Assembly (NCBI GenBank): GCA_030019105.1
Contig: JASEGY010000012.1
Coordinates: 12,627 to 23,635 of the forward strand
Source of the DNA: a bacterium
GTDB taxonomy: Bacteria; UBA9089; JASEGY01
Reading direction: 5' to 3'
Length of the DNA: 11,009 nucleotides
Under the pieces are notes generated by a model that saw nothing but the letters and a program-made list of their open reading frames with translations, was not told the DNA's origin and searched no databases. Position numbers and translations under genes: made by a program. Shown piece after piece: positions 5,058-10,729 of this stretch. Positions within the stretch are counted from its first letter, which is position 1, and the number at the start of each line of letters is the position of its first letter.

Positions 5058-5073
5058 CGCCTTTCCTGCCGGT

Positions 5074-5129
5074 AGAAACCTGGTTTCTGCGCCGGTAGAA
5101 ACCAGGTTTCTTGAAGAAACCTGGTTTCT
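5074..5129. repeat. Three copies of a 15-bp palindrome, AGAAACC-N-GGTTTCT
   Basis: Perfect copies lie at 5074-5088, 5097-5111 and 5115-5129, starting 17 bases after the stop codon of the giant gene. Each is a 7-bp inverted repeat around one central base; copies 1 and 3 have T and copy 2 has A, so copy 2 is the reverse complement of the others. The copies can pair within or between themselves and may fold the 3' end of the transcript. No U-run follows, so a classical terminator is not supported. A one-mismatch copy occurs at 7775-7789. Confidence 0.75.
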
Positions 5130-5151: not shown

Positions 5152-5382
5152 GGTGGGCTTTGCCCCACTGCCATTAAGTTAAGCCGAAGCTTTTGAAACA
5201 CAATAGGTTGACAAGGTAGGAGTTTAGGCTTTAGCCTTTCATTCTCCTGGTATTGTGCTGCAAATGAAACCCTAAAGGGTAAATTCCCTTCACAGGTGAC
5301 TGCGGGACGAATTACATACTCCCTATATCGCCTTAGCATAAAGAGTTGCCCTTAACTTAATGGCAGTGGGGCTTTGCCCACC
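5152..5382. mobile_element. 231-bp non-coding element with 32-bp terminal inverted repeats (MITE-like)
   Basis: The left arm 5152-5183 (GGTGGGCTTTGCCCCACTGC...) and right arm 5351-5382 are reverse complements at 29 of 32 positions. The three differences are the TTT inside the small hairpin GGGC-TTT-GCCC near each tip. The interior holds a copy of the GGAGTTTAGG hairpin cassette (5219-5287). No transposase or convincing protein is encoded. I see no target-site duplication at the tips, so mobility is inferred from the inverted arms only. A large stem-loop repeat that does not transpose is the alternative. Confidence 0.6.
5219..5287. repeat. Hairpin cassette copy A (GGAGTTTAGGCTTTAGCC type)
   Basis: This starts GGAGTTTAGGCTTTAGCC..TTTCAT (5219-5242) and ends ATGAAACCCTAAAGGG..ATTCC (5264-5287), an imperfect inverted repeat with a 21-base loop. 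The left 24 bases are identical to those at 7231 and 7642. Here the cassette sits inside the 231-bp element, not the 154-bp element. Confidence 0.75.
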
Positions 5383-6032: not shown

Positions 6033-6230
6033 AATAAAAAGGTGCTCACCCGTTAGTACTTTGATTTAGAAAAAATACCTGATCAGTGGAAATAGTTACT
6101 CCTCTTTTAATAGCACACGGATGACACGGATTTAACGGATTTATACTGATTTTATCCGTGGTAATCCGTGTTATCCGTGTGCTATTAGATTTTCATAATC
6201 AAAGTAGTAGTGGATGAGTACCAATAAAAA
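6033..6230. mobile_element. MITE-like element copy 1 (6041-6222, 182 bp) with 8-bp target duplication AATAAAAA
   Basis: The tips are inverted repeats matching at 21 of 26 positions (6041-6066, GGTGCTCACCCGTTAG...; 6197-6222, ...GGATGAGTACC). AATAAAAA is present exactly on both sides (6033-6040 and 6223-6230). A second internal inverted repeat (6108-6131 with 6164-6187, built on TAGCACACGGAT / ATCCGTGTGCTA) would let most of the element fold into one long stem. No coding capacity. The element ends 19 bases before the PorV-like start, and its right duplication touches the ribosome binding site. An 8-bp AT-rich duplication with GG-starting tips is compatible with an ISL3-type transposase acting in trans, which is an inference. 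Confidence 0.85.
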
Positions 6231-7183: not shown

Positions 7184-7230
7184 GGTAACTATAGTGCTTA
7201 AGAAAAAGATTTTGGGGTTGGTTGAAGATT

Positions 7231-7283
7231 GGAGTTTAGGCTTTAGCCTTTCATAAGTAATGAAATCCTAAAGGATTAACTCC
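7231..7283. repeat. Hairpin cassette copy B
   Basis: Left half 7231-7254 (GGAGTTTAGGCTTTAGCC..) and right half 7260-7283 (ATGAAATCCTAAAGGATT..) form an imperfect inverted repeat with a 5-base loop. The small palindromes AGGCTTTAGCCT and TCCTAAAGGA lie within the halves. It is the centre of the 154-bp element B and shares its 24-base left half exactly with copies A and C. Confidence 0.8.
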
Positions 7284-7320
7284 GAAAGCTATATAGCCTA
7301 TCTTGAATTCGCTTACCCCA

Positions 7321-7526
7321 AAATATTTGGTGCTTACCCGTTAGTACTTTGATTTAGAAAAAATCACCTAATCCGTAGGAATAGCTACTCCTTTTAATAG
7401 CACACGGATGACACGGATTTAACGGATTTGCACTGATTTTATCCGTGGTAATCCGTAGTATCCGTGTTATCCGTGTGCTATTAGATTTTCATAATCAAAG
7501 TAGTAGCGGATGAGTACCAAATATTT
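7321..7526. mobile_element. MITE-like element copy 2 (7329-7518, 190 bp) with 8-bp target duplication AAATATTT, inserted in element B
   Basis: Same family as the 6041-6222 element: near-identical tips (7329-7354 and 7493-7518, 21 of 26 paired) and the same TAGCACACGGAT internal stem. AAATATTT is duplicated exactly (7321-7328 and 7519-7526). Deleting the element plus one duplication gives CCCCAAAATATTTATCTTAA, which is what the intact sister element has at about 7727-7746. Copy 2 carries one extra 9-base ATCCGT-type unit (AGTATCCGT) and small indels relative to copy 1. Confidence 0.9.
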
Positions 7527-7543
7527 ATCTTAAGAGCTATATT

Positions 7544-7573
7544 CAGCCACAGAGTCACAGAGACTCAGAGAAT
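7544..7573. repeat. CACAGAG-type short repeat tract
   Basis: AGCCACAGAGTCACAGAGAC continues as TCAGAGAA: three CAGAG steps in about 25 bases. It resembles the CCACAGAG-CACAGAG tracts found dispersed in many environmental bacterial genomes. A weaker remnant (CCAGAGAGTACAGAGAA) is at 8219-8235. No function is assigned. Confidence 0.45.
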
Positions 7574-7600
7574 TATACTGCGCACCGTCATAAACTGAGC

Positions 7601-7754
7601 TATAGTGCTTAAGAAAAAGATTTTGGGGTTGGCTATCAATTGGAGTTTAGGCTTTAGCCTTTCATAACTAATGAAATCCTAAAGGATTAACTCCAAAAGT
7701 TGAACAGCCTGTCTTGAGTTCGCTTACCCCAAAATATTTATCTTAAGAGCTATA
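7601..7754. mobile_element. 154-bp MITE-like element C (uninterrupted copy)
   Basis: This is a full copy of the element seen broken at 7190-7541, in the same orientation. The inverted ends TATAGTGCTTAAG (7601-7613) and CTTAAGAGCTATA (7742-7754) frame the GGGGT/ACCCC arms and the central hairpin cassette. CTATA occurs at both tips of both copies, so it may be part of the element or a preferred target; the exact ends cannot be fixed from two copies. No coding capacity. Confidence 0.8.
7642..7694. repeat. Hairpin cassette copy C
   Basis: Left half 7642-7665 is identical to copies A and B, and right half 7671-7694 is identical to copy B. A 5-base loop separates them. This is the central hairpin of the intact 154-bp element. 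Confidence 0.8.
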
Positions 7755-7774
7755 TTTAAGAGCAGCGGGGTGAT

Positions 7775-7789
7775 AGAAACCAGGGTTCT
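7775..7789. repeat. Degenerate copy of the AGAAACC palindrome
   Basis: AGAAACCAGGGTTCT differs from the form at 5097-5111 by one base. It lies 48 bases before the Shine-Dalgarno of the protease gene. Confidence 0.5.
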
Positions 7790-8208: not shown

Positions 8209-8244
8209 GACAAGAAATCCAGAGAGTACAGAGAAAGGTGATTG

Positions 8245-8514
8245 ATGGAAATTTACGAGCTGATTATCGAGATGAAATTACTTGAGCGTCGGTTGACTCT
8301 CTACGAAGAGAAATATGGGGTTCTTAGCGAAGACTTTTACGCTGCTCTTATGTCTGGCAGGTTAGCACGTTATGATGCTTATGATGAGACCCGTGCTGAT
8401 TTCAGCCGATGGAAGGGGATTTATGAGATATGGCTGCGGCGTAAAAAAACTTATAACAACCAAATTCAACAACGTGATTTGGGTGAAGCTTTGCGCATTC
8501 AGCCCGCCTATTGA
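8245..8514 (+). CDS. Small helical protein, probable antitoxin partner of the TumE-family gene
   Basis: 89 residues from the ATG at 8245 ([17 protein letters not shown]...). A TTG at 8242 would add one residue but leaves too little room after GAAAGG (8233-8238), so the ATG is preferred. It is predicted mostly helical, charged ([37 protein letters not shown]), with no transmembrane segment and no clear helix-turn-helix. Its stop overlaps the possible TTG start of the next gene (TTGA at 8511-8514), the tight coupling typical of antitoxin-toxin operons. The antitoxin role is inferred from size, order and partner, not from a motif. Confidence 0.7.
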
Positions 8515-9754: not shown

Positions 9755-10729
9755 TTATCTTTGTCCGTTCAGAGCCCGTTCGAACTCTTCCAGTGACGCA
9801 CATCGTATTGCACGGCGCAGGAGGGACTTAAGGACATCTCTATCCTCTATCCGGTTTACAGCATCAGAAACAAAAAATGGGACCTCTCCAAACCGCTCAT
9901 CCAATGCCTCCGATATCATCTCTCGACCATCCTCCAACAATCCCTGCTGTATCCCTTTTTTTATTCCGATTCTCTCCACGCTTGTAACGTATGGCATTTT
10001 CTTCACCTCCTCTAATTGTTTTATTTCTTCCCCTATTAGCTCTTCATCTTCATCGCTTAGTTGTAAAACCCAGTCGATAAATTTGAACAGTGCTTCTACT
10101 TCCTCTCTTTTGTATCCTCGTTCATACAATTTCCTTATTAGATATAGTTTGGCATTGAACTTTCCCCCTTTTTGTTTGGCCCGTTCCTTTTCCTGAGAAG
10201 CCAAAACCACCAGGGCTATTGGATTAGTATCTTGTGCTAACTTATCTTTTTTATAATCCATCAGTTTGAAAGAGAGATATCGAAACTCTACCCCACTATC
10301 ATAAGCTTTGAGCTCATATCTTCCCTCCTCTTCTGTAACTCTCTCTGGGCCAGTCAATATGGCTATACTCACTATTTTTCTGCCATAACTTTCGAATATC
10401 TTATAAAAATATCTAAACATCCGAAGTGAAAAATCTTTTTCTGGATACCCTTGAACTTCTATATGAACCAAAATCCATTGTTCCTCCCCATTCTTAAGGT
10501 AAACTTTGACCAGCTTGTCAACATATTTAGCGCCTTTTACGCTCTTTAGGGACAACTGTTCCATTTCCTTATCCATGAAGGTAATCCCCTTTGAAAAATC
10601 AACATCTTCGTAGAAATCGGGGACGAAAAACCGTAAAAGCTGCGGGAAGAACCGCTCTATAATCTTCTTCCATGCCTCATCAAAGTATGCCCAGTATCCA
10701 TCCTGCTTTGTCATAATTTTTCTCGTCAA
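9755..10729 (-). CDS. Rpn-family PD-(D/E)XK nuclease (recombination-promoting nuclease / transposase-like)
   Basis: 324 residues from TTG at 10729, preceded by AGGGGG (9-base gap) and AAAGGA (3-base gap). The ATG at 10714 would give a protein five residues shorter, but its upstream has only a weak GAG. The core is D71 (in VDKLVKVYL) and E91-V-Q93 (in VHIEVQGYPEKDF), the D...ExQ variant of the PD-(D/E)XK fold, followed by MFRYFYKIFESYG and a hydrophobic strand VSIAILTG. The charged helical C-terminus has KKGIQQGLLEDGREM then ALDERFGEVP, usual for Rpn/PDDEXK_2-type proteins. Such nucleases cut DNA and stimulate RecA-independent recombination in E. coli (RpnA). No transposon ends flank it. It is transcribed toward dtd, with its own promoter at 10860-10888. 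Confidence 0.85.
   Translation of the reverse strand: MTRKIMTKQDGYWAYFDEAWKKIIERFFPQLLRFFVPDFYEDVDFSKGITFMDKEMEQLSLKSVKGAKYVDKLVKVYLKNGEEQWILVHIEVQGYPEKDFSLRMFRYFYKIFESYGRKIVSIAILTGPERVTEEEGRYELKAYDSGVEFRYLSFKLMDYKKDKLAQDTNPIALVVLASQEKERAKQKGGKFNAKLYLIRKLYERGYKREEVEALFKFIDWVLQLSDEDEELIGEEIKQLEEVKKMPYVTSVERIGIKKGIQQGLLEDGREMISEALDERFGEVPFFVSDAVNRIEDRDVLKSLLRRAIRCASLEEFERALNGQR

Follow-up and report, generated by a model that had tools for sequence, protein, structure and literature searches.

A nested MITE pair and palindromic cores behind different transposon tips in an uncultured bacterium

BOX elements of Streptococcus pneumoniae are modular in build, and REPINs (REPIN/RAYT) are paired hairpins in inverted order. 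The described element closest in behavior to the one reported here is RUP of S. pneumoniae (107 bp, 108 copies), which has been proposed to be mobilized by IS630-Spn1, targets TA, and is reported to insert into IS elements (PMC2229807). BrickBuilt of Porphyromonas gingivalis is a MITE enclosing a tandem array (PMC4596501), and the uncultured Ca. Thiomargarita nelsonii carries many MITEs, a subset of which end in TATA and were linked to IS630 by the authors; neither nesting nor core sharing comes up in the passages considered, and "nested" occurs 0 times in that text (PMC4853749). The same word is absent by term search from a 2024 review of prokaryotic MITEs (PMC10969869), and MITEs lacking a matching IS are classed as type II (PMC3542288). 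Among the top matches in titles and abstract starts of open-licence PubMed Central articles, we noticed no report of cores shared between tip families, which is not proof of absence, and a text search of papers for six core-like strings gave no match.

The window analyzed here, an 11,009-nucleotide stretch of DNA (G000:C87:12627-23635), comes from a 4.34-Mb assembly of 1053 contigs estimated to be 95% complete, and it holds one short repeat element (A) inside another (B), with an uninterrupted member of the B family (C) nearby. Like RUP, B is short, has a TA target, and has tips in common with a resident IS630; unlike RUP, it is 154 bp long, belongs to an uncultured phylum, and contains a core palindrome not confined to B tips. 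The likeness to BOX lies in short repeats made of modules, but here whole cores are common to different tip families. As in BrickBuilt, MITE ends surround short-repeat arrays, although here the arrays are inverted and several kinds stand behind the same tips. Hairpins paired in inverted order recall REPIN/RAYT, whereas these elements have conventional tips and duplications, and neither core was seen in flanks of up to 1.5 kb around any of 30 Y1_Tnp loci. The features, in positions of the window, are:

5152..5382 (no strand assigned): inverted-repeat element, 231 bp, with 32-bp arms 91% complementary; a B-core-like half at 5213-5242, i.e., B core behind other ends
6041..6222 (+): second A copy in the window, 182 bp, with duplication AATAAAAA at 6033-6040 and 6223-6230
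7185..7189 (+): GTAAC immediately left of B, which with TA and TTCAGCCAC on the right reads as a third-family tip split by B
7190..7328 (+): element B, left part, 139 bp including the first AAATATTT; IS630-type tip TATAGTGCTTAAGAAAAAGATTTTGGGG; the outer TA is the target duplication
7231..7283 (+): B core palindrome (GGAG...CTCC) in element B; also present outside B tips in the phylum
7321..7328 (no strand assigned): AAATATTT, left copy of A's 8-bp duplication
7329..7518 (+): element A, 190-bp MITE; tips GGTRCTYAYCCGYTASTACTTTGATT; one long hairpin predicted
7395..7483 (+): A core palindrome, CACGGAT arrays and their inverse; also in other tip families and without recognized tips
7519..7526 (no strand assigned): AAATATTT, right copy of A's duplication
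7527..7541 (+): element B, right end; TA duplication at 7540-7541
7601..7754 (+): element C, B family, uninterrupted, 154 bp (TA..TA counted in)
7642..7694 (+): B core palindrome in element C

No right-hand tip of the GTAAC element split by B, and no target duplication at the 5152-5382 element, was recognized by eye. The second A copy, the TA-only duplication of B, and the different cores behind one tip set were absent from the first-pass annotation of this DNA.

That annotation had proposed a 190-bp insert at 7329-7518 in a B element of the same length as C, and these coordinates and lengths are borne out, as is the 8-bp duplication: AAATATTT stands at both 7321-7328 and 7519-7526, the flanks rejoin exactly once one copy is kept, and the rejoined B measures 154 bp. 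The joined B is identical over 154/154 bases to intact copies at two other loci (L232, at 364; L233, at 363) and matches two more (L236 and L241) at 153/154, which upholds the proposed order of A into B. Because the joined flanks equal intact copies, the insertion was exact, A came later than B, and the pre-insertion sequence of B is still extant elsewhere. The copies at L232 and L233 each adjoin an N gap and a doubled partial copy, their own 154 bp being free of N. The description of C as a sister element stands as to its length, its uninterrupted state, and its membership in the B family, but C matches the joined B at 141/154, with 13 differences. AAATATTT occupies the insertion position in 30 of 45 uninterrupted B copies and another octamer does so in 15; these 45 are distinct, full-length, and without N, include C, and are mainly best matches to C. 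The nested structure is far beyond chance, because the tip patterns, at up to 3 mismatches, match the genome 77 times for A (39 + 38) and 444 times for B (228 + 216), compared with 0 for each reversed-pattern control.

To define family A, we fetched 29 paired elements, 27 of which were scorable (flanks without N). An exact 8-bp duplication flanks 14/27, compared with 2/702 cross-pairings of flanks, and both cross-pairing matches come from a single pair (L024/L054) with the octamer AAACGATG in common. The remaining 13 comprise two elements with 9-bp repeats, one with a 7-bp repeat, one with a 7-of-8 repeat, and 9 with none of these. Copies lacking flanking duplications had been named in advance as an argument against transposition; they make up 9/27 and not the other 18/27, and the 18 with edge repeats, together with the tips themselves, outweigh them. 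The copies without a duplication could reflect recombination between copies or assembly breaks. With terminal inverted repeats, many copies, a target duplication, and no transposase gene, element A is a MITE.

An 8-bp target duplication is typical of the IS1595/IS1016 family, and we take the GGTACT.. tips and 8-bp duplications of A (exact at 14/27) to resemble elements of this type. A resident partner was not found, the IS1595 transposase domain (PF12762) having 0 places in this genome. Across the phylum, PF12762 has matches in 3/19 genomes, 1 of them over the cut-off; paired A-like tips are absent from all three loci, and A-like 14-base matches occur among them only at L204, two on one strand with 3 mismatches each. 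DDE_Tnp_1 (PF01609) was rejected as a helper for A, since neither of its two loci in the genome has paired tips, with one (L104) showing just single weak tip-like matches (3 mismatches in 14 bases). Nor was a transposase recognized from the ORF lists of five loci with a single A tip (L028, L058, L060, L061, and L062, the first two containing N runs); six more single-tip loci (L030, L043, L044, L047, L049, and L059) lie outside that ORF check.

For family B, the 444 tip matches suggest some 200 elements, a copy number taken from tip counts because the DNA search scored 40 of 469 candidate places. A B copy is nearly palindromic, and mean pairwise identity is 92.3% over the 45 copies chosen for similarity to C. 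Searching with DDE_3, we found two IS630-type genes in this genome (L178 and L186). The former lies in a full IS630 element of 1260 bp (L178:806-2065) with an open 360-aa transposase frame (NF033545, E 5.8e-69; DDE_3 matched at full length, 2-146 of 146). Its tips differ from the 29-base B pattern by 5 mismatches on the left and 2 on the right. The ends of C are common to this element (positions 9-31 at 100% and 126-146 at 90%) with nothing significant in the middle, and 23 bp of C's left end are identical to the element's right end. A full-length insertion sequence with matching tips, which the first-pass annotation had proposed to look for, thus exists for B. At L186, which lies at a contig end, the stretch examined contains no B tips. 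A protein search with the L178 transposase returned 6274 relatives at E ≤0.001 among 8000 candidates, the nearest non-self relative being 85% identical and some being named IS630 family transposase.

The duplication made by B can be read at L054. There an A element is interrupted by B at TTTTAA-TA-GCACAC, and other A elements have this site intact. The window's B lies in GTAAC-TA-TTCAGCCAC, and the GTAAC-family tip reads this way in some copies from a genome of the same genus (G001) and at one listed tip here (C86). TA stands at both ends of 54/56 B pairs, but since TATA opens the search pattern, this count is not independent evidence. A 5-bp duplication, considered from flank matches, was ruled out by L054, which shows TA. 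Identity of the 5 bp outside TA occurs at 6/45 B copies, compared with 8/1980 in the cross control. At L078, L080, and L084, B sits at TA inside 7-bp tandem repeats, such as GTAAGTA or CTACCTA, and the 12-base flanks of L078 and L080 are identical. Because some of the 5-bp matches together with TA read as 7-bp tandem repeats, we tentatively take them as target preference, for sites that may have 7-bp periodicity. By its tips and TA target, B is a RUP-like, IS630-type MITE. It measures 150 bp without the TA on either side, and a transposase of the IS630 (Tc1/mariner) type, encoded at another locus of this genome, most likely moves it in trans. The original suggestion that both elements depend on transposases elsewhere holds in all likelihood for B, given an IS630 with similar tips; for A, no partner was found. 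A 1062-bp B pair on C62 was set aside as two separate B elements around an ORF taken by eye for ClpP. Within 60 bases of a contig start lie 13/100 of the B tips listed, and several B loci contain N runs; B repeats probably break the assembly.

Two more tip sets are present in this genome. The third family (GTAAC..GTTAC, GTAACYRYTCAG) is MITE-like, with short conserved tips, and has 203 exact matches (105 + 98), compared with 0 + 4 in the reversed control. Among 22 exact pairs, picked from the first 100 listed places and those in B loci, 15 have edge repeats of at least 7 bp (scored without a cross control), often of 8 bp, and at least five kinds of interior can be told apart. Their middles (examples L205-L224) comprise CCACAATAT palindromes, inverted GGTTCAAG arrays, and CACAAAG, CACAGAT, and CACGAAT arrays. 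A 1014-bp GTAAC pair on C165 proved to be two 231-bp elements. The fourth set (TTCGACCTGTGCA) bounds six elements with CACGGAG arms and a CACGGAT core (L225-L227, L229, L230, and L073), where inspection by eye showed an adjoining direct repeat in no more than two elements and a script found none of at least 7 bp.

Elements of these families lie within one another, and nesting of A and B runs in both directions: by a flank test, the window alone among the A copies fetched has A in B, and L054 has B in A. B also lies between GTAAC tips (L065, L075, L090, and L098), and a GTAAC element with an 8-bp duplication lies within a B core (L219). At L215, a hairpin related to the window's 5152-5382 element apparently carries a GTAAC element at its center.

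We compared which cores stand behind which tips. Of the 29 A-tip pairs, 20 have the CACGGAT core alone (one of these also scoring CACAGAT) and 4 combine it with CGCAGAG; the other five are single cases of CGCAGAG alone, CACGAAT alone, CACGGAT with a B core without B tips, CACGGAT with a whole B, and none of the listed types. The CACGGAT core also occurs, with CACGAAT arms, between GTAAC tips (up to 1 mismatch; L074 and L216), so that three tip families of this genome enclose the A core. In G001, it lies between GTAAC-type tips, with both tips at 8/9 loci and one tip at 1/9. With up to 13 candidates scored in each genome, A-core matches occur in 11/18 other genomes of the phylum and 1/42 outside it, and B-core matches in 10/18 and 0/42. 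Among the matches listed in relatives, the match spans the core and at most a few tip bases; at 13 loci from other genera of the phylum, the A core is never flanked on both sides by any of the four tip sets, and no tips were recognized by eye around the B core in such genera. Viral contigs gave 0 matches to the exact A-core and B-core patterns, and plasmids gave none to the A core. A single one-sided A-tip match in viral contigs was taken as chance.

We built a tree from 51 distinct A-core sequences (identical ones merged; 94 columns), leaving out L009 and L118, which repeat other loci, and matches covering fewer than some 70 of the 92 bases in the query. On this tree the tip labels cluster, with 8 changes compared with a shuffled mean of 27.6, and 23/48 inner branches are drawn open. 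The GTAAC-tip cores of this genome form a separate supported group (96/96), and the A-tip cores are interspersed with those of the fourth set (six rows, of which L056 shows a single tip). This pattern suggests that cores mostly stay with their tips, and that one core lineage is likely shared between two tip sets, in either direction. The pairings described above are evidence for a partial interchangeability of tips and palindromic cores in this genome. A broader view, in which the cores form a separate phylum-wide repeat layer captured between the tips of different transposons, with vehicle and cargo evolving independently, we offer only tentatively and consider rather less probable than not.

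Overall, we favor the reading, at a probability of about 0.9, that A inserted in an older B, that B is a MITE most likely mobilized by IS630, and that the tip families are vehicles with exchangeable cores. It draws on what can be read from the DNA itself: insertion boundaries, duplications, copy families, an IS630 element with similar tips, nesting in either order, and the occurrence of the same cores behind more than one tip set. B inserted first, at the TA of an apparent GTAAC-family tip, with the IS630 transposase presumably cutting its ends and pasting them at TA, as proposed for RUP and IS630-Spn1. The hairpin-forming A then landed cleanly in the existing B, duplicating AAATATTT, presumably through a separate transposase making 8-bp staggered cuts. 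Cores may be exchanged by repeated insertion of elements into one another's hairpins, together with recombination between copies that swaps their middles; because the elements can each fold into one long hairpin and land in one another, compound elements with usable outer tips would arise.

A falsely joined pair of repeats could in principle mimic such a structure in an assembly of 1053 contigs in which some B loci have N runs and doubled partial copies. However, the whole window is free of N, the insert carries a perfect 8-bp duplication of a kind not expected from a chimeric join, the flanks rejoin 154/154 to intact copies, and the reverse nesting of B in A occurs at another locus (L054), so we consider an assembly artifact very improbable. 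Much less remote, and still unlikely, is a role for the repeats as structural or regulatory hairpins (terminators or protein-binding arrays) that are under selection and whose mobility is past. They are situated between the window's larger ORFs and fold far more stably than 100 shuffles under RNA parameters (on the two strands, z -14.1 and -11.8 for A, and -6.0 and -7.7 for C), but near-identical copies and intact duplications imply fairly recent movement, and Rfam has no family over threshold in the window, a search silent on families not in Rfam.

Slightly more probable than selected hairpins, and unlikely all the same, is that the cores are the real mobile units, REPIN-like, with the tips incidental and a RAYT-type transposase moving the B core (GGAG-hairpins-CTCC). 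Cores do occur without recognized tips in other genera, and the B core resembles REPINs in its head tetranucleotide and its pair of hairpins in inverted order. Against this, neither core was found beside any of the 30 loci of Y1_Tnp (PF01797), which are spread over 10/19 genomes of the phylum and include the single one in this genome (flanks of up to 1.5 kb, often cut by contig ends), and the A and B copies are bounded by tips, where their target duplications are located.

A nested MITE as such is ordinary; the sharing of cores is the notable part. The nested pair fixes the exact boundaries of two MITE families and their order of insertion, and the resident IS630 probably makes B one half of a helper/MITE pair in an uncultured bacterium. 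Should cores indeed swap tips, prokaryotic MITEs would be vehicles for a shared pool of hairpin DNA and not just shrunken insertion sequences, and such exchange would bear on the origin of type II MITEs and of widespread intergenic palindromes.

Other features of the window lie outside these families. Tandem short palindromes of the kind AGAAACCNGGTTTCT, another repeat type (family D14), are present at 5068-5129 and 7769-7789. A PorV-like protein encoded in the window has, in a scan of genome contigs, one confirmed relative only, 28% identical, from a Neomarinimicrobiota MAG. The ORF at 8511-8930 matches the TumE toxin (PF20126, E 1.3e-11) and is preceded by an unassigned 90-aa ORF at 8242-8514, the two possibly forming a toxin-antitoxin pair. 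On the minus strand, the ORF at 9755-10729 has a weak match to YhgA-like Transposase_31 (PF04754, E 0.00014).
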